From Quercus robur (lineage: Eukaryota > Streptophyta > Magnoliopsida > Fagales > Fagaceae): a DNA stretch of 64,000 nt. This document shows, one piece after another, positions 2,849 through 62,584 of this stretch. The DNA is taken from positions 86,520,862-86,584,861 of the forward strand of contig NC_065535.1 in NCBI RefSeq assembly GCF_932294415.1. Reading direction: 5' to 3'. Position 1 is the first letter of the stretch. Each line of letters begins with the position of its first letter. A program made the translations under genes and the position numbers. Under the pieces are notes generated by a model. The model ran no database searches. It saw nothing but the letters and a program-made list of their open reading frames with translations, and was not told where the DNA came from.

Positions 2849-5800
2849 TCATCGGGGTACTACTTGAGAAATTGTTGCATCATCTACTGAACACATCTTT
2901 TCCTGCAATATACATTTTTCTTCCTCATTTTCATCTCTTTGAACCGAAAAGGCAGGCTTTTTAGGATTGTTGATGGCTCCAGTTTCATTCTTGAGCATTG
3001 AAGAAACCTCTAACATGGATGGTCTATCAATAGGGTTTTCCTGGACACATAAGAGGGCCACTTGCATGCATCTTAGGAGTTTATAACAAGAACAAGAATC
3101 ATCCAGTGCTGGATCAATAAACTCGAACCCTTTGCCCTCTTTCCACAGCTTATATGCCTGCAATAATTACCATATTTATAGCTCAAATACAAAACTTCAA
3201 ATTACAATAATCTAAATCACAATATGCTAGAATTATAGAAAGTATTAGCAAGTAATTCACTTACATAGTCTAAAAGGTTCAAATTATCATGTGTCCCATA
3301 ATAACGTGTATTTCTCTTGCCACTTATGATTTGCAAAAGTAGAACTCCAAAACTATAAACGTCGTATTTCATGGAGTATATTCCTTTTTTTACATATTCC
3401 GGAGGAACATAACCACTGCAAAGCATGTCATAATGAAAACGATGAGTATTCAAAAAATAAAAATAAATAACAGTTGTATATTTCGTTAACAAGCATTTTA
3501 CTTATTATGTTCCAACAATCCGACCTGTGTTTGCTTCATGTTCATCCTTTCTGAAAATTCTAGCCATCCCAAAATCAGATATCTTAGGTTTCATCTCATT
3601 GTCCAATAAAATGTTACTAGCCTTTAGATCTCGATGAATTATAATAAAATTTGAGTATTCTTGGAGATATAGAAGCCCCTGAGTAACACCTTCAATAATG
3701 TCTACACGTTTCCTCCAATCTAAAAGAGAGCATCTAGGTGGATCTGCAGCAAGTCAAATTAGTACTTTATTAGTTATTAAAAAGTGTGGGGAAATGAAAT
3801 TCACAAATAATGACACCTCTTTGAACTTAATTGTCTAGCTTTGGTTCTTTGAAGCTTAAGTGAGTGCCATCCTCTTGAGGCTTTGTTGTGGAAATGGTTA
3901 GACCCATTTAAGCTTTTGAGTAAAAAATTACAAGTTACTCAGCATATGTATGCAGAAACTATGATGGGAAGCATGAAAATTAATTTGCTGACCAAAGAGG
4001 TAGAGATCCAAGCTTCTGTTTGGCATATATTCATAGATCAACATATTTTCTTCTCTCTCAGTGCAATATCCCAAAACTCTAACAAGATTTACATGTTGCA
4101 GTCTTGCTGTAAGTGTAACCTCATTTTTGAACTCTTCAAGGCCTTGGTTTGAAGTTCTTGAAAGTCTCTTTACTGCTATCTCCTGGCCATTCCATAAATT
4201 GCCCTACGAAACCAACACTCATCGTTAGTATTATATGCCAAAGATAGACATTTGAGCCATACACAATTCTGATCATTATTTACCCCAATAATATTATCTG
4301 ATATAACTATCAGTTGAAATATAATGTGCACAAACAGATACACGTGCAAATGTCTAGTCCCTTTCATGGTGCAGCTGTTTCATGGTGCTGCTGTTCAGAG
4401 AAAAGAAGATAGCTAAAAGGAAGGGTAAGACAAACAAATTGGCTATTTGGTATGAGGTCTTAAACTAACACAAAAATTGTTCAGAAGACAATGTTAACAG
4501 CATAAGAATCCTCATAAAGAGTTGGAGATTATCAGTAGCAGTCTCTTGCAGAAGGGTTGCTTATGTATTCAGCAAAAAAAGAAAAAAGAAAAAATGGTTG
4601 CTTATGTCTTCAAGTTAATATTACATGATAATTTTGATGGGAGAGGGATTTTAACCCTAGATGTCTCCATTGGAAACACTAGGAGATGCCAACCAATTGA
4701 GCTACAAGGTTCTTGGCAATGTTACATGATATTTTAAAAGGGAACTCTATAAAGTGTCAAGCATGCCTTTTATACAGAGTTAAGCATGCAAAAAGTTATG
4801 CACTTTGTGGTTGGAGAATTTTAATAAGCAAATAGAAGACCGAAACCTTCTAATGCGATGTAAATAAAACGAAGTGATTACTCACCCAACTTATCCTGAT
4901 CTCCCTAGTTTCCATGATCTGACATTGATGGACAGGTTTTTTTTTTTTTTTTTGGTTAAATAGTATTTGGACTCTGTATCTCAAAATCAATATCCACATA
5001 AAGCATTAAACAATGGATGGATTGCCAAATAATACCTTGTAAACAGGTCCGTATCCACCTTCGCCAAGCTTATTCTCACTTGAAAAGTTATTGGTAGCTG
5101 CATTAATGTCAGAATAACTGAATACTTGCAGATTAGAAGCATTGCCATTAAGATCTTCAGCAGCTAATATTTTAATTCGGACTTTATATAATAATCTTTT
5201 GACACTATCTATACAGCCTGTAACCAAAAAGAAAAGGCGAGAGAAAAATGTTTAGCATCTCCATCTTATAAATGGATGTCGTGAACTTCATCATGAGGTG
5301 GTCTCAGACTCAGATTTGGAAAAATTACCTCTTGACTTGATGACTCTGCTCCGTAAGTAACATATCATGGTGCCCAGCAGAAGCACGACTGCAACAGTTG
5401 TAGGCAGAGCTATTAACAATGTATGACTCTTATTATGTTGATCTTCGTCTTCCCCTTGAGCTACAAAGGTAGTTCAATTATGTTGATTAGAATGTCAAAA
5501 GAGGATGCCTAATATGTGCAAATGGGCAGGCCGCAAGAATATAACGATATAGAATAATAAATAATTTGTCATCAAATTCAGAACCAGGCCTTTTGGCAAA
5601 AATGTAATGATAAAGTTCTTATGGCCTTAAATGTAATTTTATATTTGGAATTAATTCTAATTCAACCACCATTAACTATATTTCTGATGTATCACTCTCT
5701 TCATGTGGCAAGTACAAGCTCAATGAGACATCAAAGCCAAAGCATGAACTCTGTTTTATTTAACAAAAATGATTATGATATTCAACCCCTGTTCCCTTTT

Positions 5801-8786
5801 AGCAAGCAGTTAGTTGGGGTCACAACCGAAACCTGAGTCTGTCTCCAATTGTTGGGAAAAACTACCCACTTTATGGTGAGAGCAAAGTCTCAACCAAAAT
5901 TTTGCTAATCAAGAGTGAATTTACCAATACAAAGGTAATGAAAGCTAACCACAACAAATACCGAGACTAAGCTAGCAAGATATGTAATATGGAATGTAAG
6001 AGACAAACCATCAAACACAGAAGGCCATTCACAATATGTTCGATGATTTGCCTCCTAAATTTCGTATTACATATCTTACTAGTTTAGCCTTACTATGTGT
6101 TGGGGCTAACCCTTTTTTTTGGCTAGGTAACTAGGGTGAGTCTGGTAGAGCTTGAACCTTAATGCCCAGATACCATAATAGATGTTTTTTTTTTTGGTTG
6201 GATAATTAAATAGTTACAATGGGGGCAATGGGAGATGAGAATTTAAATTTTAGACGTCTATTGAAAACACCCGCAAGTGCCAACTAAGCTGCAAGACTCT
6301 TAGCCACTATGTTGGAATCACTGGGATATGCCTTGAACGCTTGACTAATTTCTATTAGCTAATGTGTTGGTAAATTCACACATGCTTGATAATACTGGTC
6401 GGATAAGATGAGACTTTGCTTACCATTAGGTAGTTTTTTCCAACACCAATATCATATATATGACCAAGGTTGTCAAAATTGGGATCCTAAGTAGGATCAT
6501 TGAAAGTAGGTGGCATTGTAAATCGTAGGATCAGATCGTGAATTGTAAAATCCTACATATTTTCAAATTTAAAGCAAAAAACATATTGATAATAACTTTG
6601 TATATTGAATAATCACGTAAATTATAAATTCATTCATAAAGAAATAAAAAATAAAAAATAAAAAATAAAAGTTGCATCATATTATGTAATTTGCATGTCA
6701 TACATTAAGTCTATACTAACAAAACAAATATATTTAAGTTTTGACTCAATATATCTAAAAAGTTCAATAAATGTTTAATTAGCAACCAAATACCAAAATA
6801 TTTATCAAAACATATGGAAAATATTTTCCAAGTTCTAAGTTCCAAGTTTGAAATCCAAAATATGTTAGCAAATGGAAACTAGCTAACTACAATATGAAAT
6901 CCAAATGCAAGATGAATATTAAGGTGAAGTGAACGTTTAATTATTCTCATTCTAAGGTTCCTATAACTACCATCCTAAATTCCTAATCATCATCATCCAT
7001 TTCATCATTTATATAGACATTATATATTTGTATACTAGAGTTAAAAGACATCAGGATACAATTTTACATTCAATTATTCAAGTTATATCACTCAACAACA
7101 ATTAAAGAGCATGCTCAAAAAAATTAATCAATCAATATACAAATACAAGCATAATTGATAAAATTATATATAAAAAACATTTTAGTAATATTATAACACA
7201 AATTAGTATATTGATCAAACAAATTTAACAACATTATAGCTTAAAAGGTAGCAAAGCTAACATCAAATTCTTTATTTAGAAATGATGAAGTTTTCCTTCA
7301 TTTTGATTACAAGTGAACTAGAAAAAATAAAAATGATTACAAGCTTTCCTTCATTTCCTTCATTTAGAAATGATGAAGCTTTCCTTCATTTTGATTACAA
7401 GTTAACATGATTTTATAAAAATAAAAATAAAAAGCCATACCATCAAAACAAAAAATTTATCCCATAAAAAAAAAAAAAAAAAAAAAATTATGTTTTTGGT
7501 AGGCTCTGATACGATCCTACGTATGATTCTACCATTTTTACGATTCTAGTGTAATCCTAATTGTTTTGGTGAGGTGAAATCGTAAAATTGACATGATCTA
7601 TATCGCAATTTTGACAATCATGTATACGACTATGTCAAAATAAAATGAAAAAGAAAATGACCAATGGATTCCAAGTAGTACATTGTAACCTACCTGCTCT
7701 AGAAAGCACCCAATTATCATCATTCCCGACTTGAAAAACATTGAAACCAAGTAGCCCGCTCTGCTTTGCATAAGAGACTTTAGCTTTAACAGCCTCCACA
7801 TCGTCATAGTTAATCCAAGCCGGCCCAATTGTGCAGAAATTCACCACATAGGTAGCATTATACACTGGAGCAGCTTCAGAAGGAAAGCTTCTAAGATACG
7901 ATTTTATGAACTTATAGCCCATGGAACCGTCGACTGTAACAGCTGGACCGATAGCCGGTGCACCCATTGCATTATTATTGGGGTCCAAAAGCGTCCACGC
8001 ATAACCATGGTAAGGCAAGCCCAAAACCAATTTGCTAAGCAAAAATCCTCTTCTCTTCCACTCTTTTATGCCACTATCAGTATTAGCCCCATTCATTGGG
8101 TCATATAAAGCCGCATGAGTGTATGTGAAATTGTCGATTCTAGGCACATGGTAATCATATGCTGTAACATGTACCCAATCCAAGTTTTTCATCATGGACT
8201 CAATTGGGTAACTCACTGAATCCAAAGCTGGCAAGTAATAACCAGCCATGACCAATAGCAACTCTGACTTGCTAGAGTTTTTTGCCTCAGAAACCACAGC
8301 AATTCGCCACTCGTTCAAAAGGGTATCTAAATTGGTCATATCTGAGCTTTTGCTTGGTAGAACCCCAAAAAGGTCTATGCCATGAAACCCATAAAACCTT
8401 GCTGTTTCAATAGAGGACTGAATAAAAGAATTTCTAAAAGAGGACTGGTTGATCATTGAAAAGAAGATTGGAGAGTCTTCTCTGCCAACCCATACGGACA
8501 AAAGCGTTGTAACCAATGGGTTCTTGAGCTTTACAGTGTTGATGAAAGTAGAGAACTTTTGTTCGGTGGAGGAGTTGATAGAGAGGTGGTAGTTGGAAGA
8601 GTTTATGTAAGCAAAAGCGCATAGTAGGTGAGTAAAGAGCTTAGAGTTTATGTCAGAAATGACAGTTTCACTACCTGAATAATAATAACCAGCTTTAATC
8701 CAGGATTGTTGGGTTGAACTTGAACAGTAGGATTTGAGTTGCAGAAAGTTGAGGAGGAAGAGTAGGGTGACAAGTTTGGAAGCCAT
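2849..8786 (-). CDS. Copy A: GH18 chitinase-like receptor-like kinase (CHRK1-type), possibly splice-defective
   Basis: Seven exons read on the minus strand: 8786-7694, 5460-5329, 5217-5036, 4203-3993, 3743-3506, 3415-3265 and 3157-2849. Together they give 2316 bp, about 771 residues, with consistent phases. Exon 1 carries a signal peptide (residues 1-20) and a GH18 fold. At the catalytic loop it reads HGIDLFGV (135-142) where active enzymes have DGxDxDWE, so only the middle Asp remains. The second exon encodes a membrane span (about 378-400). The kinase keeps GEGGYG, the VK lysine (481), HRD (578), DFG (596) and a PPEY activation segment. Tobacco CHRK1 has this architecture with an inactive chitinase domain. 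The role is inferred to be cell-surface perception of a glycan or glycoprotein. The donor after exon 5 reads AT rather than GT, so the transcript may be mis-spliced. The ATG at 8786 was chosen because copy B starts there; the frame stays open upstream to 8960. Confidence 0.85.
3504..3505 (-). promoter_or_regulatory. Altered 5' splice site in copy A
   Basis: On the minus strand the exon ends GGAACATA and the intron begins ATAAGT. Copy B reads GTAAGT at the same place (58461-58460) and fragment C reads GTAAGT too (35225-35224), so A carries a G-to-A change at donor position +1. Reading through gives an immediate stop. Confidence 0.8.
4617..4730 (-). mobile_element. Short tRNA-derived SINE-like insert in an intron of copy A
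   Basis: Read on the minus strand it contains an A-box-like TAGCTCAATTGGTTGGCATC and a B-box-like GGGTTAAAATCCC, spaced as in a tRNA-derived pol III promoter. It is flanked by near-identical 13-bp direct repeats (4617-4629 and 4718-4730, one mismatch). The same insert sits in copy B at 59554-59667, so it predates the duplication. Confidence 0.6.
6185..6312 (-). mobile_element. tRNA-derived SINE-like insert with A-rich tail, copy A
   Basis: On the minus strand an A-box-like GCAGCTTAGTTGGCACTTGC is followed by a degenerate B box. It ends in a tail of A residues, seen as a T-run at 6185-6196 on the plus strand. Copy B has the same insert at 61153-61284 in the equivalent intron. It therefore predates the A/B duplication. 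Confidence 0.5.
6465..7620. mobile_element. TIR-bearing insertion (probable Mutator-like non-autonomous element)
   Basis: Copy B lacks this ~1.15-kb AT-rich stretch: there, sequence matching 6450 runs directly into sequence matching 7621. The ends are inverted copies (TTGTCAAAATTGGGAT at the left; the complement of ATTGTCAAAATTGCGAT at the right), each followed by subterminal 'ggatccta/gatcctac' words. The flanks carry an imperfect direct repeat (about ATCATATATATGAC versus ATCATGTATACGAC). No transposase frame is visible. It includes a local tandem repeat of 'gatgaag.tttccttcattttgattacaag' at about 7280-7410. The family is inferred from long subterminal similarity and flank repeat length and is uncertain. 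Confidence 0.6.
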
Positions 8787-10296
8787 TGAAAAATGATGTC
8801 TCATGCTTAATGCGTTAGTACCATGTGTCAAAGCGTAGCTATTTAGCTTGAAAGAATTAAGAAACAAGACCGCAAGGAAAAAGAGGGAGCTTTGATTAGG
8901 TCCGGAGCAGGCGTAGAAGTGTGTTTCACGCCAGCTAATGAGAATGTGCCACATCATCATTTTAACAAATCCTCAATTTTGCAGGACCTTCACACATTTC
9001 ACACACAAAAAAAAAAAAAAAAAGCCATCACTGTTTGCAGGGCTTGCTGACTAGTCTTCTTACTTCTTTGCTATGATGTTTCAATAATTTTACATTGGCT
9101 TGTCAAAAAGAAAAAAAAAATTACATCGGGAATTTGTTAAGATGATGATGTGATGCCTCCTCATTGGCTGGTGTAAAACCCACTTTTTATGCTAGATCTG
9201 GACTGAGTTTGGAAGCCATTGAAAAATGATGTCTCATGCTTAATGCGTTAGTACCATGTGTCAAAGTGTAGCTATTTAGCTTGAAAGAATTAAGAAACAA
9301 GACCGCAAGGAAAAAGAGGGAGCTTTGATTAGGTCCGGAGCTGGCGTAGAAGTGTGTTTCACGCCAGCTAATGAGAATGTGCCACATCATCATTTTAACA
9401 AATCCTCAATTTTGCAGGACCTTCACACATTTCACACACACAAAAAAAAAAAAAAGCCATCATTGTTTGCAGGACTTGCTGACTAGTCTTCTTACTTCTT
9501 TGCTATGATGTTTCAATAATTTTACATTGGCTTGTCAAAAAGAAAAAAAAAATTCACATTGGGAATTTGTTAAGATGATGATGTGATGCCTCCTTATTGG
9601 CTGGTGTAAAACCCACTTTTTATGCTAGATTTGGACTGAGTTTGGAAGCCATTGAAAAATGATGTCTCATGCTTAATGCGTTAGTACCATGTGTCAAAGT
9701 GTAGCTATTTAGCTTGAAAGAATTAAGAAACAAGACCGCAAGGAAAAAGAGGGAGCTTTGATTAGGTCCGGAGCTGGCGTAGAAGTGTGTTTCACGCCAG
9801 CTAATGAGAATGTGTCACATCATCATTTTAACAAATCCTCAATTTTGCAGGACCTTCACACATTTCACACAAAAAAAAAAAGCCATCACTGTTTGCAGGA
9901 CTTGCTGACTAGTCTTCTTACTTCTTTGCTATGATGTTTCAATAATTTTACATTGGCTTGTCAAAAAGAAAAAAAAAATTACATTGGGAATTTGTTAAGA
10001 TGATGATGTGATGCCTCCTCATTGGCTGGTGTAAAACCCACTTTTTATGCTAGATCTGGACTGAGTTTGGAAGCCATTGAAAAATGATGTCTCATGCTTA
10101 ATGCGTTAGTACCATGTGTCAAAGTGTAGCTATTTAGCTTGAAAGAATTAAGAAACAAGACCGCAAGGAAAAAGAGGGAGCTTTGATTAGGTCCGGAGCT
10201 GGCGTAGAAGTGTGTTTCACGCCAGCTAATGAGAATGTGCCACATCATCATTTTAACAAATCCTCAATTTTGCAGGACCTTCACACATTTCACACA

Positions 10297-10331
<35 letters not shown>

Positions 10332-10747
10332 CCATCACTGTTTGCAGGACTTGCTGACTAGTCTTCTTACTTCTTTGCTATGATGTTTCAATAATTTTAC
10401 ATTGGCTTGTCAAAAAGAAAAAAAAAAATTTACATTGGGAATTTGTTAAGATGATGATGTGATGCCTCCTCATTGGCTAGTGTAAAACCCACTTTTTATG
10501 CTAGATTTGGACTGAGTTTGGAAGCCATTGAAAAATGATGTCTCATGCTTAATGCGTTAGTACCATGTGTCAAAGTGTAGCTATTTAGCTTGAAAGAATT
10601 AAGAAACAAGACCGCAAGGAAAAAGAGGGAGCTTTGATTAGGTCCGGAGCTGGCGTAGAAGTGTGTTTCACGCCAGCTAATGAGAATGTGTCACATCATC
10701 ATTTTAACAAATCCTCAATTTTGCAGGACCTTCACACATTTCACACA

Positions 10748-10783
<36 letters not shown>

Positions 10784-11191
10784 CCATCACTGTTTGCAGG
10801 ACTTGCTGACTAGTCTTCTTACTTCTTTGCTATGATGTTTCAATAATTTTACATTGGCTTGTCAAAAAGAAAAAAAAAATTACATTGGGAATTTGTTAAG
10901 ATGATGATGTGATGCCTCCTCATTGGCTGGTGTAAAACCCACTTTTTATGCTAGATCTGGACTGAGTTTGGAAGCCATTGAAAAATGATGTCTCATGCTT
11001 AATGCGTTAGTACCATGTGTCAAAGTGTAGCTATTTAGCTTGAAAGAATTAAGAAACAAGACCGCAAGGAAAAAGAGGGAGCTTTGATTAGGTCCGGAGC
11101 TGGCGTAGAAGTGTGTTTCACGCCAGCTAATGAGAATGTGCCACATCATCATTTTAACAAATCCTCAATTTTGCAGGACCTTCACACATTT

Positions 11192-11224
<33 letters not shown>

Positions 11225-11846
11225 GCCATCACTGTTTGCAGGACTTGCTGACTAGTCTTCTTACTTCTTTGCTATGATGTTTCAATAATTTTACATTGGC
11301 TTGTCAAAAAGAAAAAAAAAATTTACATTGGGAATTTGTTAAGATGATGATGTGATGCCTCCTCATTGGCTGGTGTAAAACCCACCTTTTATGCTAGATT
11401 TGGACTGAGTTTGGAAGCCATTGAAAAATGATGTCTGATGCTTAACGCGTTAGTACCATGTGTCAAAGCGTAGCTATTTAGCTTGAAAGAATTAAGAAAC
11501 AAGACCGCAAGGAAAAAGAGGGAGCTTTGATTAGGTCCGGAGCTGGCGTAGAAGTGTGTTTCACGCCAGCTAATGAGAATGTGCCACATCATCATTTTAA
11601 CAAATCCCCAAGTTTGCAGGACCTTCACACATTTCACAAAAAAAAAAAAAAAAAAAAAAAAGCCATCACTGTTTGCAGGACTTGCTGACTAGTCTTCTTA
11701 CTTCTTTGCCATGATGTTTCAATAATTTTACATTGGCTTGTCAAAAAGAAAAAAAAAAATTACATTGGGAATTTGTTAAGATGATGATGTGGTGCCTCCT
11801 CATTGGCTGGTGTAAAACCCACTTTTTATGCTAGATCTGGACTGAA
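8774..11846 (-). repeat. Seven tandem ~440-bp units of the copy A 5' end and upstream region
   Basis: Units begin at about 8774, 9206, 9640, 10064, 10515, 10965 and 11409 and end near 11846. Each contains the first five codons of the receptor gene (MASKL), the leader and the upstream sequence. The one at 8774 runs into the real gene; in the other six MASKL is followed by SPDLA or SPNLA and a stop. On the minus strand each unit has two CCAAT boxes, two TTGAC cores and an A-run of variable length (about 11 to 35) that explains most of the length variation. Internal variants (GTGCCAC/GTGTCAC, AGATCTGG/AGATTTGG) alternate between neighbours, suggesting growth by dimers. Copy B has a single diverged unit (about 62580-62690). 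Confidence 0.92.
8784..8960 (-). promoter_or_regulatory. Leader of copy A with an upstream in-frame extension
   Basis: The frame of the receptor is open for 58 codons upstream of the chosen ATG, starting MMMWHILISW and including a hydrophobic stretch (SSLFFLAVLFLNSF). Four of the other array units (near 9393, 10251, 11152 and 11637) keep an open version, and two (units at 9640 and 10515) have a stop right after its first codons. Copy B does not preserve it, so a function as an alternative N-terminus is doubtful. Confidence 0.4.
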
Positions 11847-11908
11847 TTTAAGCTCCAAGGAAAAAAGGAATACCTACAATGGCTTGTTCTAGATTTCATT
11901 GAAGATTA

Positions 11909-12233
11909 GGTGAGTGTTTGGATACAACTTATAATTCTTACGTTTACGTTTTTGCGTTTTTTTCTTTTTTTTTTGCTTGTCATTGTTTTTGACTTTTCAA
12001 CTTGTTTACTATTCACTTTTCATCAACCCATGCACAGTTCACAGCAAAATAAGCAGTGGAGTGCACACCAATGGGTCCCGTGAATAGCAAACCTCACTTT
12101 TTAGCTATTTTTTCATTAAAAATGGGTCCCACGATACTATTCACACATTTAAAAATTATTTTGCTATAGTGTTTTCAATTTTCAGTTTCAGTTTTTAATT
12201 TTCAGTAAAAATAAATTGTATCCAAACAAACCC
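11909..12233. mobile_element. Small TIR transposon (MITE), ~325 bp
   Basis: The insertion is bounded by inverted ends (GGTGAGTGTTTGGATACAA at the left; complement of GGGTTTGTTTGGATACAA at the right). Flanking trinucleotides are TTA and TAA. The matching place upstream of copy B (about 62740) lacks it and reads TAA, so the site is an empty/filled pair. The interior is AT-rich and non-coding. A Harbinger-type TWA target duplication with one change fits best. Confidence 0.7.
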
Positions 12234-23219: not shown

Positions 23220-26200
23220 AATTTTCTTTTCAGGTGGTTGGTAGAATAGGTATACAATTGGCTATGCTAGGGGTTTGTGGATTCTCTGGAAAATCAGAAG
23301 AGGTGGAAGTTCTTCCTTTATCATCCACAGAGTAGGAAATACATGCTACTGTTAAGGTGCGTTCCTCCAACCTTACCTGGCTTATGTCTGCTATTTATGC
23401 TAGTCTTAGGTTGGCTGAAAGAAGAATATTATGGGAGAATCTTAAAACTGTAGTCCATCTCCATAATTTACCTTGGCTCATGTTAGGAGACTTTAATGAA
23501 GTTCTGTGTGATGAAGATAAGTTTGGTGGCAATCATGTCAATTTGAATAGAGCTTTAGAATTTAAGGAATGTTTAGATGAGTGTAATATGTTGGATTTGG
23601 GTTTTGCGGGTCCAAAGTTCACGTGGACAAACCGTAGACCCATTCAAATCTGATATTAGAAAGAATAGACAAGTGTTTTGCTAATCTTGTGTGGCGTATT
23701 CTTTATCCAGAAGCCTTAGTGACTCACCTCCCAAGGACCTTCTCAGATCATTGCCCGATCTTAATTGAGTTATGTAGAGTTAGTGCTAACCATCATAATA
23801 AACCTTTTCGCTTCCAAACAATGTGGTTACTCCACCAAGACTTTCCGAGGGTTGTCCAGCAAGCTTGGACTAAAGATAGAGTTTTACAGGAAGCAATCTT
23901 GGATTTTGTAGTTAGAGCTAGAAAGTGGAATTGTGAAGTGTTTGGGAATTTGTTTGCTAAAAAGAGGAGAATATTAGCTAGACTTCATGGTGCCCAAAAA
24001 GCTCTAGCTAATAATCCTAATGACTTTCTTTTGGAGTTGGAGCAACAGTTGATTTCAGAATACTCTCTAATCCTGATGCAGGAGGAGGAGTATTGGGCAC
24101 TCAAATCTAGATTAAATTCTACCACTTTTGGAGACCGCAACACATCTTTCTTCCATGTTTCTACATTAGTTAGGAGACATAGAAATAAGATTAGGTGCAT
24201 TAAGGATGTTGATGGCAATTGGCTAACTGATGAAGCAGAAATTAAGGATTACATCAGCAATGGCTTTAAAAAAATTTATATGACTAAGCTAAATGTGTCC
24301 TCCATGACCTTGGATGTTTCAGAATTTTCTTGTTATTTTCTGGAAGAGGAGGATAGAGCTAGAATTGATGGTGATGTGACTGAAAAGGAGATCAGAGCCG
24401 ATTTATGGGCTCTTAAGCCTTTCAAGGCACCAAGACCAGACGGGTTGCATGCGAGCTTTTATCAACTCTTTTGGATGGAGGTAAAAAATTCTGTTTACAA
24501 AGAGATTAAAGGAATTTTTGAAAAGGGTTGTGTGCCGAGTTACCTTAATGAGACTTTGATTTCTTTGTTCCCCAACTGTCAAAACCCAGAAACTTTGAGC
24601 AATTATAGGCCTATTAGTTTATGCAACTCGGTCTATAAGATTGTGTCGAAGATCTTGTGGCTGGGGTTAGGCCTCTGCTTGGCAGTTTGATATCGCCTGT
24701 GCAGACCGCTTTTGTTCCTGGCAGAAGAGGCACTGATAACGTGCTGATTGCTCAAGAATTGTTTCATGCTTTGGATAAAAATAGAGGAAAAATAGGCTTC
24801 ATGGTTGTGAAGTTGGATTTGGAAAAGGCTTACGACAGATTAGAATGAAGTTTTATTCATAGAGTGCTCCAAGCCTTCTACTTTCCCCCAAAAATTTATA
24901 GGATCATCATGAGCTGTGTTACATCCTCAAGCACTTTTATATTGGTTAATGGGGGTGCCTTAAAGCGTTTTAAGCCACCTAGGGGCATAAGGCAGGGGGA
25001 ACCTTTGTCTCCGTACCTTTTTATACTATGTATGGAGTATTTGGGGCATCTATTGAACAAAAATGTGTGAATGGAGATTGGACTCCTTTAAAGGCTTCGA
25101 AGGACAACTTAGGCTTTTCCCATCTTCTTTTTGCGGGCATAAGGCAGGGGGAACCTTTGTCTCCGTACCTTTTTATACTATGTATGGAGTATTTGGGGCA
25201 TCTATTGAACAAAAATGTGTGAATGGAGATTGGACTCCTTTAAAGGCTTCGAAGGACAACTTAGGCTTTTCCCATCTTCTTTTTGCAAATGATATCATCC
25301 TTTTTAGCAAATTTGATGCCAATGGGTGTGAAGCAATTTTAGATGTGCTCGAAAAGTTTTGTTTAGAATCTAGCCAAAAGATTAGTCCCGATAAGTCTAG
25401 AATTTATTTTTCTCCTAATGTTAGTAATGAGATGAAGGAGGAAATAAGTGAAAGACTGGGCATCCGTGAGACCAATAATATAGGGAAGTATCTCGGGCTT
25501 CCTCTCAAGCACCGAGGGGTCCCTAGAAATCCCTATAATTTCATTATGGAGAGGGTCATGAGTAAGCTTGCTGGATGGAAGGCAAAGTTCCTCTCCTTTG
25601 TAGGTTGGGCTATTTTAATAAAGTCAGTAATGTCTGCCATCCCAAATGATGTGATGCAAGGGGCAGTTTTACCAGTGCATGTTTGTGAGAAATTGGACAA
25701 AATCAATTGGGATTTTTTATGGGGGTCCACAAATGAAAGAAGGAGGATGCACACGATGGGCTGGAGTAAAATTATGAAATCCAAAGAAGAAGGGGGACTG
25801 GGACTTCAAGAAGCAAGAGCTAAGAACATAGTCTTGTTATCCGAATTGAATTGGAGAATGAATCATGAACATGATGCATTGTGGGCAAAGGTCATTCTAA
25901 AAAAATATTGCTCCACTTCAAGAGTTAGGTAGAGAGATCCTGAAAAACTCCCATCGTCCCCTAATTGGAAAGCCATCAGTTTAGGTTTCCCTATTTTCAA
26001 AAAAAGGGATTGTCTAGGGGATTGGAAATGGCTCGGGGGTCAATGTATGGATGGAAAATCAGGTTAATGTTGATTCACTTTGGGTTATGATTGAAGGTCC
26101 TCTTAAGCAGGAAGAGCAAAATTTGAGGGTTTCGGATCTGCGTTGTGGTCAAGAATGGAAATGGGAGCTTATTTCCTTTGACCTCCTTGAGTTCATTAAA

Positions 26201-35217: not shown

Positions 35218-35225
35218 GTACTTAC

Positions 35226-35790
35226 TAGGTTCCAACAATGTGGCTCGTGTTTGCTTCTTTTTCATCTTTCTTGAAAATTCTAGCCATGCCAAAGTCTGAG
35301 ATCTTGGGCTTCATCTCTTCATCCGATAAAATGTTACTAGCTTTTAAATCTTGGTGAATTATTATCATTCTTGAATACTCTTGAAGATATAAAAGCCCTT
35401 GAGTTACCCCTTCAATAATGTCAATGCGTTTTCTCCAATCCAATAGGTATCATTTGTTATATAATGAACAATTAGTTTTGCAATTATATTGGGGCTAATA
35501 GAGCACTAAGATGTGAAACATTGCATTTAACATATATCAGTAACTATAATTGGAAGAGGAAAGATATTAGACCAAAGAGGTAGAAGTCCAAGCTTTTGTT
35601 CAACATGTACTCATAGATTAGCATTTTTTCATCCATTTCAATGCAAAATCCCAAAACTTGCACAAGATTTACATATTGTAGCTTTGCAGTGAGCATAACC
35701 TCATTCTTGAACTCCTCAATTCCTTGTGTAGATGTTTTTGAAAGTTTTTTCACAATTATTTCTTTTCCATTTGGTAGTGCACCCTAACAA
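35226..35790 (-). pseudogene. Fragment C: two kinase exons of the chitinase-like receptor kinase family
   Basis: On the minus strand, 35787-35570 reads [20 protein letters not shown]...[18 protein letters not shown], matching the second kinase exon of A and B. Bases 35443-35226 read [19 protein letters not shown]...DFGMARIF...IVGT, matching the next exon. HRD appears as HQD and part of the short intervening intron is lost. The 3' donor GTAAGT (35225-35220) is intact. No GH18, transmembrane or last exons lie next to it; the downstream side is cut off by repeats at 35217. It is a relic from a third receptor copy, not a gene. Confidence 0.85.
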
Positions 35791-50519: not shown

Positions 50520-53500
50520 GACTATGATTTTAGGGGGGTTTTTACTGTTCTAGTGATTTCAGGGGTATTTTTGTCATTTTAGATATTTTTGGACGATTTT
50601 GGTCATTTCGAGGTTTCCCAGGGGGTATTTTGGTCATTTTCATAAGATTTAGGGTATTTTTGGTAATTTTAGAGGTTACATGGGTATTTTGATCATTTTC
50701 TAGATTTCAAGTATTTTTTTAGATTTTAGGGGTAATTTGGTCATTTTGGGTCTTCCATGTGGTATTTTTTGGATCAAGGTTAATTTTGGCATTTTTTTTG
50801 GAGTTTTGCTATTTTCAATCAATTTGTTATTATAATAAATTTAATTATTTTTAAGAATGTTTATTTATCAATTATATGAATGCTACATTCTTGGATTATG
50901 ATTGAAATGTAATTTAATGAACCAAACACCTTAATGTCAATTATACGAATGCTACATTCATGGATTATGATTGGAATGTAATTTAATGAACCAAACACCT
51001 TAATGTCACATTAAAGTAATGTGATCACATGAATCTAAGATTATGATGATATAGCATTACACTTTGATGTAACATCAAGCGAACCAAACGCCTCTTTGAT
51101 GCGCTCTTGATGTGATGCACACCACCTTAATGTAACATTAAAGTGTTTGGTTCATTTAATTCTTTCTAACATTACCATAATTTAAGATTACAAATTATAT
51201 CACATCAATTTCTCAAATGGGGGTGATCTTACATTATTTTTGGTGGAGACGTAATAATTTATTGAATTGACAAAATTGCCCATACTAAAAAATATTTATT
51301 TTACCCATGAGAATTACCAAAAAAAAAAACCTCTAAAATACCCCAAAACCTTTATAATGACCAAAATATCCTTAGAACTGCCAAAATAACTAAAATGCAC
51401 TACGAATGTCCAAAATATCCCAAAAACCTAAAAAAAAGACCAAAATACCCCCCAAACCCTCCAAAATGACCACAATACTCCCCCTCCCCCTCCCCTCCCC
51501 CCACAAATTTCAAATGACCACAATACCATTGAAACCTCAAAAAAAAAAAAAAAAAAAACAAAACAAAAAAAACAAAAACAAAAATACCCTCCAAAACTCT
51601 AAAAATGAAGAAAATACCCCTAAACCTAAAAAATGGCTAAAATACACTCGAAACTTCTCAAACAACCAAAATACTATTGAAACCCCCTGAGCCCTCTAAA
51701 ATGACAAAAATACCCCCAAAACCTAATAAATTACTAAAATAACACTGAAACCTCTCAAACGACCAAAATACCCTAAAACCTCTAAAATGACCAAAATACC
51801 CTCAAAACATCTAAAATGGGCAAAAATACCTTGATACCTCTAAAATGACGAAAAATACATTGTAACCTCTAAAATGAAAAAAATACTCTCGAAACCACTA
51901 CAATGACTAGAATACCTTCGAATCCTCAAAAATGACTAAAATACCTCTAAAACCTCTAAAACAACGAAAATAGTCCTAAAACCACTATAATAATAAAAAT
52001 ACCCCTGAAATCACTAGAATGACCAAAATACCACCCCCCCTGCCCAAGAAACCATAAAAATGACCAAAATACCCCAAAACTTCAAATTAACCAAAAATAC
52101 ATTTAAACCACTTGAATGACCAAATTATCTCGAAACCTCTAGAGAGACCATAAAAACCTTGAAAATAGTATAATGATCAAAAATACCCTGAAACCTCTAA
52201 AAGACCAAAATACCCCTAAACCTGTAAAATGATTAAAAAAAAGAATACCCCCAATGTCACAAAAATGACCAAAATGCTCATAAATCCTCTAGAATGAGCC
52301 AAAAAAAAAACCCTGAAACCTCTAAAATGACCAAAATACCACGATATCGCTAAAATGATTAAAACACCCCAAAACTTGTATAATGATTAAAATAACCCAA
52401 AATTGCAAAAATGACCAAAATGTCATCAAAACCTCTAGAATGAGCACAAAAACCTGAAACCTCTAAAATGGCCTAAATATCCCAAAACCATCTAACTACC
52501 TTGAAACTTTTAAATTGGCCTAAAATACTCGAAACCTTCAAAATAACCAAAATATTCGGGTTATATTGTGTCATTTAGTGGTTTTAGGGGTATTGCGGTC
52601 ATTTTTGAGGTTTTAGGATATTTTTTGACCATTTTAGTGGTTAAAGAGTATTTTGGCCATTTTAAATATTTTAATATATTTTGGTCATTTTGAATATTTT
52701 AAGGGAATTTTGGTCATTTTAGTGGTTTCGGAATATTTTGGTCATTTTATAGGTTTTTAGGGATTTTGGACAGTTTAGAGGTTTCATGGGCATTTTTGGT
52801 CATTTGAGGTTTTAGGGGTATTTTGTTCATTTGTTAGATTTTGGGGGGATTTTGGTCTTTTTAGCGATTTCGAAGTGTATTTTAATCATTTTAGATGTTT
52901 GTGGTATTTTGGTCATTTTTGAGGTATCGAGTTTTTTTGCTCATTCTAGCGGTTTTAGGGGTATTTCGGTCATTTTTGAGGTTTTGGGGTTATTTTAGTC
53001 ATTTTAGAGATTTTGGGGCAATTTTGGTCATTTAAAATGTTTCGAGGTATTTTTTTTGTTGTTTTGATATTTTGGGGGTATTTTGGTAATTTTAGTGATT
53101 TCGAGGGTATTTTGGTAGTTTTTTTTTATTTTGGGAGTATTTAAGATTGTTCTAGTGATTTCAAGTTTATTTTTGTCATTTTAGAGATTTTTGGATGATT
53201 TTGGTCATTTTGAGGTTTTGGGGGGGATTTTGGTCATTTTAATAAGATTTAGGGTATTTTTTGGTAATTTTAGGTATTTTGGTCATTTTTTAGATTCAAG
53301 GGTAATTTGGTCATTTTGGACCTTCCATTGGTATTTTTTGGTTCAAGGGTAATTTTGGCTTTTTTTTGAAATTGGTGATATTTTCAATCAATTTGTTATT
53401 ATAATAAATTTAATTATTTCTAAGAATGTTTATTTATCAATTATATGAATACAACATTCTTGGATTATGATTGGAATGTAATTTAATGAACCAAACACCT

Positions 53501-55900
53501 TAATGTCATATTAAGGTAATATGATCACATGAATCTAAGATTACGATTATATAACATTACACCTTGATGTAGCATCAAGCGAACCAAGCGTCCATGTGCC
53601 CTTGATGTGATGCACATCACCTTAATGTGACATTAAGGTGTTTGATTCATTTAATCTTTTCTAACATTACCGTAATCTAAGATTACAAATTATATCACAT
53701 CACCTTCTCAAATAGTGGTGACCTTACATTATTTATTGGTAGAGATGTACAAATTTATCGAATTGACAAAATTGCCCATTCTAAAAAAATATTTATTTTA
53801 CCCATGAGAATTACCAAAATATCAAAAAAAACTCTAAAATACCCCAAAACCTCTAAAATGACCAAAATACTCTCAGAATTGCCAAAATGACTAAAATACA
53901 CCATGAATGTCCAAAATATCCCAAAAACCTAAAAAAATGACCAAAATGCCCCCAAACCCTCCAAAATGACCACAATACCCACAAAACTTTTCAAATGACC
54001 AAAATACCATTAAGACCTCAAAAAATACAAAAATACCCTCGAAACCTCTAAAAATGACCAAAATACCCCTAAACCTAAAAAAATGACTAAAATATACTCG
54101 AAACCTCTCAAAAGACCAAAATACTATTGAAACCTATAAAAAGACAAAAATGCCCCCGAACCCTCTAAAATGACGAAAATACCCCCAAAACCTAATAAAT
54201 TGACCAAAATACCCATAAACCTAAAAAATGACTAAAATACACTCAAAACCTCTCAAAAGACCAAAATACTACTGAAATCTAAAAAAAGACAAAAATACCC
54301 TCGAACCCTCTAAAATGATGAAAATACCCCCAAAACATAATAAATTACTAAAATAACATTGAAACCTCTCAAATGACCAAAATACCCTAAAACCTATAAA
54401 AGGACTAAAATACTCTCAAAACCTCTAAAATGAGCAAAAATACCTTGATACCTCTAAAATGATGAAAAATACCCTAAAACCTCAAAAATGACAAAAAATA
54501 CCTTGTAACCTCTAAAATGACCAAAATATTCTCGAAACCACTAAAATGACCAAAATACCCCAAAACCTCTCAGATGACGAAAATAGTCTACTATAATAAG
54601 GAAAATACTCCCGAAATCACAGAATGACCAAAATACCACTGACCAAAATACCCTAAAACTTCAAATCAACCAAAAATACATTGAAACCACTTGAATGACC
54701 AAATTATCTTGAAACCTCTAGAGAGACCAAAAATACCTCGAAAACAATAAAATGACCAAAAATACCCCAAAACCTGTAAAATGATTAAAAAAAAAAAAAC
54801 CTTCAATGTCATAAAAATGACCAAAATGCCCTCAAATCCTCTAGAATGAGCAAAATATCACGAAATCGCTAAAATGATCAAAATACCCCAAAACATGTAA
54901 AATGATTAAAATACCCCCAAAATTGCAAAAATGACCAAAATACCATCAATACCTCTAGAATGAGCACAAAAACTTGAAACCTCTAAAATGACCTAAATAT
55001 CCCAAAACCATCTAAATGACTAACTACCTTGAAATTATTAAACTAGCCTAAAATACTCGAAACCTTCAAAATAACCAAAATTTTGGGGTTATATTGTGTC
55101 ATTTAGTGGTTTTAGGGGTATAAAGAGTACTTTGGCCATTTTAATTTTTTAATTTTTATATTTCAGTCATTTTATAGATTTCAAGGGAGTTTCGGTCATT
55201 TTAGTGGTTTCAAAATTTTGGTCATTTTATAGGATTTTCGGTATTTTGGACAGTTTCAAGGTTTCGTGGGCATTTTTGGTCATTTGAGGTTTTAGGGGTA
55301 TTTTGTTCATTTTTTAGATTTTGGGGGTATTTTGTTCTTTTTTGCGATTTTGAAGTGTAATTTAATCATTTTAGATGTTTGTGGTATTTTGGTCATTTTC
55401 GAGATATCGAGTTTTGTCTGCTCATTCTAGCAGTTTCAGGTGTATATCAGTCATTTTAGAGGTTTTGGGGTTATTTTGGTCATATTAGAGATTTGGGGGC
55501 AATTTTGGTCATTTAAAATGTTCAGGGTTTTTTTTTTTTTTGGTCGTTTTGATATTTTGGGGGTATTTTGGTAATTTTTTGATTTCGGGGGTATTTTTTT
55601 TACCATTCTAGTGATTTTAGGGGTATTTTTGTCATTTTAGAGATTTTTGGATGATTTTGGTCATTTGGGTTTTTTTGGGGGGGGGTATTTTAGTCATTTT
55701 CATAAGATTTAGGGTATTTATGTTAATTTTAGAGGTTACATGGGTATTTTGGTTATTATTATTTTTTATTTCAAGTATTTTTTTAAGGTTTTATGGGTAA
55801 TTTGGTCAGTTTAGGTCTTCCATTGGTATGTTTTGCTTCAAGGGCAATTTTGGCATTTTTTGGAGTTGATGTTATTTTCAATCAATTTGTTTTTATAATA
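50520..55900. repeat. Inverted minisatellite complex: 29-bp repeats in alternating orientation, ~2.5-kb higher-order units
   Basis: The unit is about 28-30 bp, in one orientation like GGGGTATTTTGGTCATTTTA GAGGTTT and in the other its complement. Orientation blocks are: forward 50520-50820, spacer to 51270, reverse 51270-52555, forward 52560-53340, spacer to 53780, reverse 53780-55085, forward 55090-55850. Landmarks such as TTCTAGTGATTT recur at about 50545, 53150 and 55604, so a block of about 2.5 kb is itself tandemly repeated. The frames seen in it are low-complexity translations. Confidence 0.9.
50820..51270. repeat. Spacer of the minisatellite complex with an internal foldback, copy 1
   Basis: It holds AATGAACCAAACACCTTAAT and, near 51140, its inverted copy (TTAAAGTGTTTGGTTCATTT), forming a foldback about 230 bp across. 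A 68-bp piece is doubled here (50872-50938 and 50939-51007). The equivalent spacer at 53340-53780 has a single one. Confidence 0.75.
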
Positions 55901-57808: not shown

Positions 57809-60800
57809 TCATCGGGGTACTACCTGAGAAATTGTTGCATCATCTACTGAACACATCTTTTCCTGCAATAGACATTTTTCTTCCTCATTTTCATCTCTTT
57901 GAATCGAAAAGGCAGGCTTTTTAGGATTGTTGATGGCTCCAGTTTCATTCTTGAGCATTGAAGAAACCTCTAACATGGATGGTCTATCAACAGGGTTTTC
58001 CTGGACACATAAGAGGGCCACTTGCATGCATCTTAGGAGTTTATAATAAGAACAAGAATCATCCAGTGATGGATCAATAAACTCAAACCCTCTGCCCTCT
58101 TTCCACAGCTCATATGCCTGCAATAATTACCACATTTATAGCTCAAATACAAAACTTCAAATTACAATAATCTAAATCACAATATGCTAGAATCATAGAA
58201 AGTATTACCAAGTAATTCACTTACATAGTCTAAAAGGTTCAAATTATCATGTGTCCCATAATAACGTGTATTTCTCTTGCCACTTATGATTTGCAAAAGT
58301 AGAACTCCAAAACTATAAACGTCGTATTTCATGGAGTATATTCCTTTTTTTACATATTCCGGAGGAACATAACCACTGCAAAGCATGTCATAATGAAAAC
58401 GATGAGTATTCCAAAAAAAAAAAAAAAAGTTGTATATTTCATTAACGGGCATTTTACTTACTATGTTCCAACAATCCGACTTGTGTTTGCTTCATGTTCA
58501 TCCTTTCCGAAAATTCTAGCCAACCCAAAATCTGATATCTTAGGAATCATCTCATTGTCCAGTAAAATGTTACTAGCCTTTAGATCACGGTGAACTATAA
58601 TAAAATTTGAGTATTCTTGGAGATATAGAAGGCCCTGAGTAACGCCTTCAATGATGTCTACACGTTTCCTCCAATCTAAAAGAGAGCATCTAGGTGGATC
58701 TGCAGCAAGTCAAATGAGTACTTTATTAGTTATTAAAAAATGTGGGGGAATGAAATTCACAAATAATGACCCCTCTTTGAACTTAATTGTCTAGATTTGG
58801 TTCTTTGAAGCGTATATGAATGCCATCCTCTTGGGGATGTTGTGGAAATGGTTAGACCCATTTAAGCTTTTGAGTAAAAAATTACAGGTTGCTCAGCATA
58901 TGCATGCAAAAACTATGATGCGAAGTATGAAAATCAATTTGCTGACCAAAGAGGTAGAGATCCAAGCTTCTGTTTGGCATGTATTCATAGATCAACATAT
59001 TTTCTTCTCTCTCAGTGCAATATCCCAAAAGTCTAACTAGATTTACATGTTGCAGTCTTGCTGTAAGTGTAACCTCATTTTTGAACTCTTCAAGGCCTTG
59101 GTTTGAAGTTCTTGAAAGTCTCTTTACTGCTATCTCCTGTCCATTCCGTAACTTGCCCTATGAAACCAACATTCATTGTTAGTATTATATGCCAAAGATA
59201 GACATTTGAGCCATACACAATTCTGATCATTATTTACCCCAATAATATTATCTGATATAACTAACAGTTGAAATATAAAGTGCACAAACAGACACACGTG
59301 CTAATGTCTAGTCCCTTTCATGGTGCAGCTGTTCAGAGAAAAGATGATAGCTAGAAGGAAGGGTAAGACAAACAAATTGGCTATTTGGTATGAGGTCTTA
59401 AACTAACACAAACATTGTTCAGAAGACAATGCTATCAGCATAAGAATCCTCATAAAGAGTTGGAGATTATCTGTAGCAATCTCTTGCAGAAGGGTTGCTT
59501 ATGTATTCAGCGAAAAATGGAAAAGAAAAAATGGTTGCTTATGTCTTCAAGTTAATATTACATAATAATTTTGATGGGAGGGGGATTTTAACCCTAGATG
59601 TCTCATTTGGAAACACTAGGAGACGCCAACCAATTGAGCTACAAAACTCTTGGCAATATTACATGATATTTTAAAGGGGAATTCTATAAATTGTGTCAAG
59701 CGTGCCTTTTATACAGAGTTAAGCACAGAAAAAGTAATGCACTTATTGTGGTTGGAGAATTTTAATAAGCAAATAGAAGATCTGAAACCTTCAAATGGGA
59801 TGAAAATAAAACGAAGTGATTCCTCACCCAACTTAACCTGATCTCCCTAGTTTCCACGATCTGACATTGATGGACAGGTTTTTTTTTTTTGGGTTAAATA
59901 GTATTTGGACACTATTTTAAAATCAATATCCACATAAAGCATTAAACAATGGATGAATTGCCAAATAATACCTTGTAAACAGGTCCGTATCCACCTTCGC
60001 CAAGCTTATTCTCACTTGAAAAGTTATTGGTAGCTGCATTAATGGCAGAATAACTGAATACTTGCAGATTAGAAGCATTGCCGTTAAGGTCTTCAGCAGC
60101 TAATATTTTAATTCGGACTTTATATAATAATCTTTTGACACTATCTATACAGCCTGTAACCAAAAAGAAAGACAAGAGAAATGTTTAGCATCTCCATCTT
60201 ATATATGGTTGTTGTGAACTTTATCATGAGGTGGTCTCAGAGTTGCAAAAATTACATCTTGACTTGATGACTCTGCTCTGTATGTAACATATAATGCTGC
60301 TCAGCAGAAGCGTGACTGCAACGGCTGTAGGCAGAATTATTAACAATCTATGACTCTTATTATGTTGATCCTCATCTTCCCCTTGAGCTGCAAAGGTATT
60401 TCAATTATGTTGATTAGAATGTCTCAAGAGGATGCGTAATACGTGCGCATGGGCAGGCCACAAGAATATAACGATAAACTAGAATATTACAAGAATAAAT
60501 AATTTGTGATCAAATTCAGAACCAGGCCTTTGGGCAAAAATGTAATGATAGAGTTCTTATCCCCTTAAATGTAATTTTATATATGGTCTGAATTCTAATT
60601 TAACCACCATTAACTATATTTCTGATATATCAGTCTCTTCATGTGGCAAGTACAAGCTCAATGAGATATCAAAGCCAAAGCATGAACTCTGTTTTACTAA
60701 ACAAATGATTATGATATTCAACCCCTGTTCCCTAATTTCGCAATTTTAGCAAGCAGTTAGTTGGGGTCACAACCGAAACCTGAGTCTGTCTCCAATTGTT

Positions 60801-62584
60801 GGGAAAAACAACCCACTTTATGGTGAGAGCAAAGTCTCAACCAATATTGCTAATCAAGAGTGAATTTACCAATACAAAGGTAATGAAAGTTAACCACAAC
60901 AAATACCGAGGCTAAGCTAGCAAGATATGTAATATGGAATGTAAGAGACAAACCATCAAACACATAGAGGCCATACACAATATGTTCGATGATTTGCCTC
61001 CTAAATTTCATATTACATATCTTACTTGTTTATCCTCACTATGTGTTGGGACTAACTGTTTTTATTTTTATTTTTTTATATATATTTTTTTGTTAGGTAA
61101 ATAGGGTGAGTCTGGTTGAGTTTGAACCTTAATGCCCAGATACCATATAGATGTTTTTTTTTTGGTTGGATAATTAAATAGTAACAATGGGGGCAATGGG
61201 AGATGAGAATTTGAATCTTGGATGTTTCCATTGAAAACACCAGCAAGTACCAATTGAGCTGCAAGACTCTTGGCCACCATGTTGGAATCACTGGGATATG
61301 CCTTGAACGCTTGACTAATTTCTATTAGCTTATGTGTTAGTAAATTCACAAGTGCTTGATAATACTGGTTGAATGAGATGAGACTTTGCTCACCACTAGG
61401 TAATTTTTTCCAACGCCAATATCATAAATACGACTATATCAAAATAAAAAGAAAAAGAAAATGACCAATGGATTCCAAGTAGTACATTGTAACCTACCTG
61501 CTCTAGAAAGCTCCCAATTATCATCATTCCCGACTTGAAACACATTGAAACCAAGTAGCCCGCTCTGCTTTGCATAAGAAACTTTAGCTTTAACAGCCTC
61601 CACATCGTCATAGTTAATCCAAGTCGGCCCAATTGTGCAGAAATTCACCACATAGGTAGCATTATACACTGGAGCAGCTTCAGAAGGAAAGCTTCTAAGA
61701 TACGGTTTTATGAACTTATAGCCCATGGCACCGTCGGCTGTAACAGCTGGACCGATAGCTGGTGCACCCATTGCATTGTTGTTGGGGTCCAAAAGTGTCC
61801 ACGCATACCCATGGTAAGGCAAGCCCAAAACCAATTTGCTAAGCAAAAATCCTCTTCTCTTCCACTCTTTTATGCCGCTATCAGTATTAGCCCCATTCTT
61901 TGGGTCATATAAAGCCGCATGAGTGTATGTGAAATTGTCGATTCTAGGCACATAGTAGTCATATGCTTTAACATGTACCCAATCCAAGTTTTTCATCATG
62001 GACTCAATTGGGTAACTCACTGAATCCAAAGCTGGCAAGTAATAACCAGACATGACCAATAGCAACTCTGACTTGCTAGAGTTTTTTGCCTCAGAAACCA
62101 CAGCAATTCGCCACTCGTTCAAAAGGGTATCTAAATTGGTCATGTCCGAGATTTTGCTTGGTAGAACCCCACAAAGGTCTATGCCATGAAACCCATAAAA
62201 CCTTGCTGTTTCTATAGAGGACTGAATAAAAGAATTTCTAAAAGAGGACTGGTTGATCATTGAAAAGAAGATTGGAGAGTCTTCTCTGCCAACCCATACG
62301 GACAAAAGCGTTGTAACCAATGGGTTCTTGAGCTTTACAGTGTTGGTGAAAGTAGAGAACTTTTGTTCGGTGGAGGAGTTGATAGAGAGGTGGTAGTTGG
62401 AAGAGTTTATGTAAGCAAAAGCACATAGTAGGTGAGTAAAGAGCTTAGAGTTTATATCAGAAATGACAGTTTCACTACCTGAATAATAATAACCAGCTTT
62501 AATCCAGGATTGTTGGGTTGAACAGTAGGATTTGAGTGGCAGAGAGTGGAGGAGGAAGAGTAGGGTGACAAGTTTGAACGCCAT
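57809..62584 (-). CDS. Copy B: GH18 chitinase-like receptor-like kinase (CHRK1-type), apparently intact
   Basis: Seven exons on the minus strand: 62584-61498, 60387-60256, 60153-59972, 59157-58947, 58699-58462, 58375-58225 and 58117-57809. They total 2310 bp, about 769 residues, with every junction GT-AG and in phase. Domains: signal peptide ([21 protein letters not shown]), a GH18 fold to about residue 360, a membrane span and a Ser/Thr kinase. The kinase has [24 protein letters not shown] and PPEY. The GH18 catalytic loop reads HGIDLCGV (133-140), so the proton-donating Glu is Val and two of three Asp are replaced; hydrolysis is not expected. Several N-glycosylation sequons sit in the ectodomain (NSSNYH, NSST, NFT, NAT). 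It is the best candidate for the working member of the cluster. Its likely role, by family, is plasma-membrane signalling in response to a glycan-like ligand, which is inference. Confidence 0.92.
59554..59667 (-). mobile_element. Short tRNA-derived SINE-like insert in an intron of copy B
   Basis: It is equivalent to the insert at 4617-4730, with 13-bp direct repeats at 59554-59566 and 59655-59667 and the same A- and B-box-like words. Confidence 0.6.
61150..61284 (-). mobile_element. tRNA-derived SINE-like insert with A-rich tail, copy B
   Basis: On the minus strand it reads GCAGCTCAATTGGTACTTGC, then GATTCAAATTCTC, and ends in an A-run (T-run 61154-61162). It is better preserved than its partner at 6185-6312. 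Confidence 0.55.

Follow-up and report, generated by a model that had tools for sequence, protein, structure and literature searches.

The start of a predicted receptor-kinase gene of Quercus robur, referred to here as gene A, is preceded by a tandem array of seven head-to-tail units. Gene and array lie in a stretch of 64,000 nucleotides, the window of this analysis (assembly GCF_932294415.1, contig NC_065535.1, forward-strand positions 86,520,862 to 86,584,861), which also contains a paralogue, gene B. A preceding annotation from the letters alone (the sequence-only reading) had described the array as the seven-fold amplification of a ~440-bp promoter unit beside a receptor gene. The amplification itself stands: Tandem Repeats Finder, a repeat search and blastn all find seven units, of 425-451 bp, next to a receptor-kinase gene. 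The description of the unit as the multiplied promoter of gene A does not hold for most of its length. Structure, relatives elsewhere in the genome and an apparently empty site at gene B identify this greater part as a non-autonomous Mutator-like miniature inverted-repeat transposable element (MITE). Plain promoter duplication is rejected, since an inserted element, absent from paralogue B, makes up the greater part of the unit. Sequence comparison makes it rather probable that a MITE inserted next to gene A, that an illegitimate event duplicated it together with the gene start, that the array then grew from its middle, and that the outcome would be repression of gene A sooner than a boost.

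The array is genuine and not a product of chance. Tandem Repeats Finder reports a period of 433 with 7.0 copies and 96% matches (8773-11849, score 5512), the repeat search finds seven copies at spacings of 433, 433, 425, 451, 450 and 443, and blastn with unit 1 as the query returns seven full copies with identities of 94.7-100%. The differences in unit length reside mostly in a poly-T tract (poly-A on the plus strand) of 11 to 34 bases. Outside these tracts, 17 of 408 ungapped columns are variable; the mean pairwise difference between units is 1.4%, and the maximum is 2.9%. Unit 3 matches unit 5 exactly once the poly-T tract is set aside, and two sites separate unit 4 from unit 6. Stronger constraint on the leader than on the element was considered and rejected, as the two parts do not differ in variation (3 variable sites out of 113 in the leader part versus 14 out of 295 in the element part; Fisher p 0.42).

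Read in the direction of the gene, a unit begins with ~324 bp of a foldback element and ends with 113 bp that comprise the leader, the start codon and four codons (lengths as in unit 7). The element makes up about three quarters of each unit, and the coding sequence in every unit runs from the start codon through codon four, plus two bases of codon five. The limits of the element were judged by the ends of its relatives, which place the most complete copy between GAGCTT and AAGCTC (11522-11855). Its terminal inverted repeats of ~90 bp are identical at 70 of 90 positions. As RNA, the segment 11518-11862 folds end to end with -117.5 kcal/mol (z -8.0), a stability that none of 100 shuffled sequences reached. 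Long terminal inverted repeats, a short (336 bp), non-coding body and presence at several places in the genome, the hallmarks of a MITE, are all seen here. Mutator-like elements have long inverted repeats and target-site duplications of 8-11 bp, typically 9, and their MITEs are mobilised by the MURA-type transposase of an autonomous relative. The present element is accompanied by a 10-bp direct repeat, CAAGGAAAAA; a shared word of this length was found in 1 of 5000 random pairs of 16-nt stretches.

Relatives of the element were sought with a unit-length query of 451 bp in the 785.7-Mb genome (42 contigs), a search that scores its best candidates only and may miss copies. Among the 34 matches listed, the leader part occurs at the array and paralogue B only, and segments of the element are also present at other places. 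Eight places beyond the window (L009-L016) match the terminal repeats of the element; not all of them are complete, and some are visibly partial. Target-site duplications were scored in two of the eight places fetched. One of these, on another contig (L012), holds a 508-bp relative with both ends and the interior, the same end bases, and a perfect 9-bp duplication, TTAAATAAA. The other (L013) holds a relative of 1704 bp with the same end bases; its inverted repeats measure 449-471 bp (90%), and one mismatch interrupts its 9-bp duplication (8/9). This longer relative (L013:551-2254, corresponding to G000:C40:4386350-4388053) repeats the terminal 31 bases once more in its interior, at L013:1711-1741. 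No second array of the kind described here was found in one search of the 786-Mb genome.

Paralogue B, ~54 kb away and with neither element nor array, provides a built-in control. It had been credited with one unit, which applies to the leader quarter only: by blastn, B matches the first 90 bp of the unit (start codon and leader) with 76% identity, and no part of the element. When array and element are collapsed, the upstream flank of A continues into that of B, with a local score of 48 against a maximum of 30 for 400 random segments, and B looks like an empty site for the element. The divergence between A and B (Ks 0.063; 0.065 across five introns) exceeds that among the units. The array therefore probably postdates the A/B duplication, provided that the clock was not reset by exchange among units. 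At five further paralogous loci (L029-L033), neither element nor leader gave a blastn hit at E 1e-4 in the ~0.6-1.2 kb beyond the exon-1 match.

A history in three steps can be proposed. In the first, the Mutator-like MITE inserted ~100 bp ahead of the gene A start codon, as seen from its structure, its relatives elsewhere and the empty site of B; the simplest inference places this insertion after the split of A and B. In the second, an illegitimate event would have joined the element to codon 5 of gene A, thereby duplicating in tandem the element, the leader and the start codon. The junction from which we infer this event is present in the array: it runs from a point 11 bp inside the outer end of the element to codon 5, with a single shared base. 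The right edge of the array, in whole units (11844), lies 11 bp inside the right end of the element (11855). In the third step, the inner units would have multiplied to seven, probably by unequal exchange. Growth from the middle is suggested by the distribution of changes, old states being kept at the two ends of the array and new ones shared among the inner units. At column 423, the old base is found only in unit 7 and in B; the change common to units 1-6 creates an extra ATG, in frame and six codons ahead of the start. Column 391 has a new base in units 2-6 but not in unit 1, unit 7 or B; the alignment is one base off for B there, and its state was read from the sequences themselves. The row sums of divergence for units 1-7 (39, 37, 24, 27, 24, 27 and 54; permutation p 0.048) make unit 7 the most divergent by far, followed by unit 1, with unit 2 close behind.

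The manual models of genes A and B have seven exons each and predict products of 771 and 769 residues, with GH18 and kinase parts and, by eye, a signal peptide and a membrane segment. A Pfam domain run, made for gene B alone, places both domains in one protein (PF00704, E 1.9e-48; PF07714, E 1.8e-44). Gene A probably lacks a complete kinase, as the donor of exon 5 at 3505 is not GT. This donor is GT in B and in L029, L030 and L031, that is, in B and three of the five fetched paralogues, where exon 5 was found. Read-through past exon 5 ends at a stop immediately behind ...RIVGT, and omission of this 238-bp exon would change the reading frame, so that the kinase of gene A is probably truncated. 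Its reading frames are otherwise open. Truncated receptors are still able to act as decoys, and the predicted product of gene A, a GH18 receptor with a truncated kinase, is a possible decoy. The GH18 part has changed too. Active class V chitinases carry the catalytic motif DxDxE; when HGLDLDWEYP of the Arabidopsis enzyme (3aqu) is aligned, DWE becomes CGV in B, and A has FGV. The catalytic motif is lost in A and B.

The domain plan recalls that of CHRK1-type GH18 receptor kinases, which have, like gene B in the Pfam run, GH18 outside and a kinase inside; the likeness is one of domain plan, and the CHRK1 sequence itself was not aligned with A or B. According to one source, 91 GH18-kinase proteins have been counted in plants, the GH18 part is predicted to be enzymatic, and tobacco CHRK1 is assumed to act in development (PMC5485988). 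The predicted enzymatic activity contrasts with the loss of the catalytic motif in A and B. The assumed developmental role of CHRK1, the one named relative of the same domain plan, leaves the earlier label of a likely immune receptor weak.

Gene A belongs to a local family. In a genome search with its exon 1, 10 of 12 matches fell on the same contig within ~280 kb; B is 97% identical to A in this exon, and the other eight same-contig copies are 67-74% identical to A. Copies and fragments of GH18 receptor kinases cluster over ~280 kb (G000:C2 86.51-86.79 Mb; L017-L025 and L027), and the window is part of this cluster. A third GH18 copy at 650-1700 is the remnant of a decayed paralogue (71% over 286 bp to exon 1 of gene A), for which the frame list contains no open frame of at least 110 codons. 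Two fragments at 35219-35771 resemble the exon 4-5 kinase region of gene A (75-81%); the rest of the gene gave no match in that comparison.

As for regulatory motifs, the two CCAAT boxes per unit reported from sequence-only reading are found in unit 1, and units 2-7 have three each. All of them are oriented with the gene and all lie within the element, so any action of the CCAAT boxes would have been brought in by the transposon. The two TTGAC cores per unit, already regarded as not being strict W-boxes, were recovered in every case, one in the element and one in the leader. Repeats of strict W-boxes are ruled out, as TTGAC[C/T] occurs on neither strand of any unit.

The arrangement of start codons suggests that only the gene-proximal unit (unit 1) can start a productive mRNA. 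All six distal start codons open MASKLSP[D/N]LA, a frame of ten codons with a stop in the next element, and 72 of the 76 upstream ATGs between the true start and 11880 do not lead into gene A. A transcript that began in a distal unit would carry up to six decoy start codons with their ten-codon open reading frames (ORFs) and dozens of other AUGs, and for this reason would be translated poorly. Repeated upstream start contexts lower translation and invite decay, unless they are spliced out. Small-RNA-directed methylation would also find a natural target in the repeated hairpin-forming element. Reduced or epigenetically variable expression would then be more likely than a boost; for gene A, repression or no effect is expected, and a boost is possible. 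The anatomy makes additional start sites and short aberrant products plausible.

Several known systems resemble the array. The nearest is FWA of Arabidopsis, where a transposon at the gene start has also been tandemly duplicated in place. In FWA, this is a short interspersed nuclear element (SINE) over the transcription start, with two repeat pairs in A. thaliana, whereas here it is a DNA MITE in seven units; the source passages do not mention a repeated start codon, whereas the array here repeats one. FWA has been shown to be methylated and silenced, and the array here is known from sequence alone. The repeat structure of FWA varies by species, and more repeats have been suggested to stabilise silencing (PMC3431836). 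The maize b1 hepta-repeat (7 x 853 bp) also consists of seven tandem units acting on one gene, a shared number that may be coincidence; it lies ~100 kb upstream, in contrast to the position of the present array directly at the start of gene A. In the natural allelic series of b1, several repeats are needed for paramutation; in transgenes, a 413-bp sub-fragment ligated as seven repeats suffices, and copy number does not strictly track activity (PMC3798267). Tetris of Drosophila virilis is a foldback DNA element that, as here, supplies the repeats of tandem arrays (PMC4079207). The Tetris repeat lies within the inverted repeats and has been amplified in beta-heterochromatin, whereas the unit here joins the element to a gene start. 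Some satellites have probably been derived from MITE-like elements (review, PMC5615363). The array differs from these systems in that its unit is a DNA MITE fused to the leader and start codon of a gene; a search of part of the open-access literature found no report of the same arrangement. In analogy to FWA or maize b1, the array may be regarded as a candidate platform for silencing. A natural, copy-number-dependent epiallele of the FWA/b1 type, built from a DNA hairpin element, in which the seven units silence gene A in cis via small RNAs and each distal unit adds a decoy start codon, is a more specific version that we regard as doubtful; if true, it would provide two layers of repression, with a strength that follows unit number.

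The proposed sequence of insertion, duplication, growth and repression has a number of points against it. The left copy of the direct repeat lies 3-4 bp off the end of the element and is not flush with it. A dimer-wise higher-order repeat, in which unit 3 is like 5 and unit 4 like 6, was rejected as no more than a hint (permutation p 0.06). CpG depletion is uninformative and gives no clear methylation footprint: the observed/expected ratio is 0.38 in the array, like that in exon 1 of A and B (0.40 and 0.39), and 0.49 in the window. The leader with its many upstream AUGs could be spliced out, and four upstream ATGs, each of them in unit 1, share the frame of gene A and read into it without a stop, making some longer products possible. 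With Ka/Ks of 0.41 between A and B, there is no sign of a long neutral decay of A. Finally, repeat number need not mean silencing: high expression of b1 also depends on its repeat region (PMC3798267), and in A. halleri, FWA is silenced although it has no tandem repeats (PMC3431836).

The strongest competitor to a repressive role is that the array is a neutral by-product, without an effect that matters, next to a gene that is already a pseudogene. This is possible, if clearly the less probable view. The exon-5 donor of gene A is lost and is GT in all four paralogues with a readable exon 5, variation does not differ between the two parts of the unit, and the nearby third GH18 copy is a fragment; a gene already damaged in its kinase may simply tolerate the array. 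The otherwise open frames of gene A and the A/B Ka/Ks ratio argue against this view, as does the general ability of truncated receptors to act as decoys. It is unlikely, on the other hand, that promoter multiplication is at work, with repeated CCAAT and other motifs raising or re-timing the expression of gene A. The two or three CCAAT and two TTGAC motifs per unit would agree with it, and there are precedents for promoter repeats that serve expression: in addition to maize b1, the tandem repeats of the Magnaporthe PWL2 promoter contain sequences required for PWL2 expression, and a minisatellite in the apple MYB10 promoter gives rise to red flesh (PMC11321683). However, short motifs are common and every CCAAT copy is transposon-borne, each distal unit brings a decoy start codon, the leader is not measurably more conserved than the element, and the splice donor of exon 5 is damaged. 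An assembly artefact, with fewer units in the plant, is very improbable: the close likeness of units 3 and 5 and of units 4 and 6 makes a false repeat of one unit pair conceivable, but 17 substitution columns tell the units apart, and a genome in 42 contigs, with lengths of 43.6-98.2 Mb for the six inspected, points to long reads.

If MITE insertion followed by duplication is the correct history, the locus would illustrate how the start codon of a gene can be captured by a tandem array that a miniature transposon has seeded. Comparisons of unit number, methylation and output among individuals, and of A with B, would bear on whether such arrays act as enhancers, decoys or silencing platforms.

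Table 1. Features of the array, the two genes and the inserted elements (window coordinates).
Feature	Position	Strand	Remarks
Tandem array, seven head-to-tail units	8773-11844	minus	Tandem Repeats Finder, repeat search, blastn
Unit 1 (adjoins gene A)	8773-9205	minus	433 bp
Unit 2	9206-9638	minus	433 bp
Unit 3	9639-10063	minus	425 bp
Unit 4	10064-10514	minus	451 bp
Unit 5	10515-10964	minus	450 bp
Unit 6	10965-11407	minus	443 bp
Unit 7 (outermost)	11408-11844	minus	437 bp
Leader part of unit 1: 5' leader, start codon (8786), first four codons of gene A	8773-8885	minus	113 bp, repeated in every unit
First of six distal start-codon ORFs	9187-9219	minus	MASKLSPDLA-stop
Other distal start codons	9652, 10077, 10528, 10978, 11421	minus	
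Most complete MITE copy	11521-11856 (336 bp as analysed)		Inverted termini, RNA fold, relatives' ends
Left copy of 10-bp direct repeat CAAGGAAAAA	8873-8882		Target-site-duplication-like, 3-4 bp from element end
Right copy of 10-bp direct repeat CAAGGAAAAA	11856-11865		Flush if element ends at 11855
Second MITE-like insertion upstream of array	11909-12233		Tourist-like by eye (GGTGAGTGTTTGGATACAA ... TTGTATCCAAACAAACCC); absent from B by eye and blastn A/B gap
Gene A, GH18-transmembrane-kinase receptor	2849-8786	minus	Exons 8786-7694, 5460-5329, 5217-5036, 4203-3993, 3743-3506, 3415-3265, 3157-2849; manual model
Paralogue gene B	57809-62584	minus	Same seven exons, GT/AG at every modelled intron, no element or array upstream

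The second MITE-like insertion is flanked by TTA and TAA, which do not form an exact 3-bp duplication. Beyond the spliced receptor-kinase genes, the window contains retroelement domains of the Ty3-type gag-pol and the non-long-terminal-repeat type, a content that marks it as plant DNA; a Pfam run on nine other ORFs served to describe these surroundings. At 51405-55666, Tandem Repeats Finder also reports a 28-29-bp unit (AAAATGACCAAAATACCCC...) in long degenerate arrays of either orientation. A perfect 152-bp tandem duplication (100% matches) at 24983-25286, in a retroelement-like stretch, is either very recent or an assembly slip.

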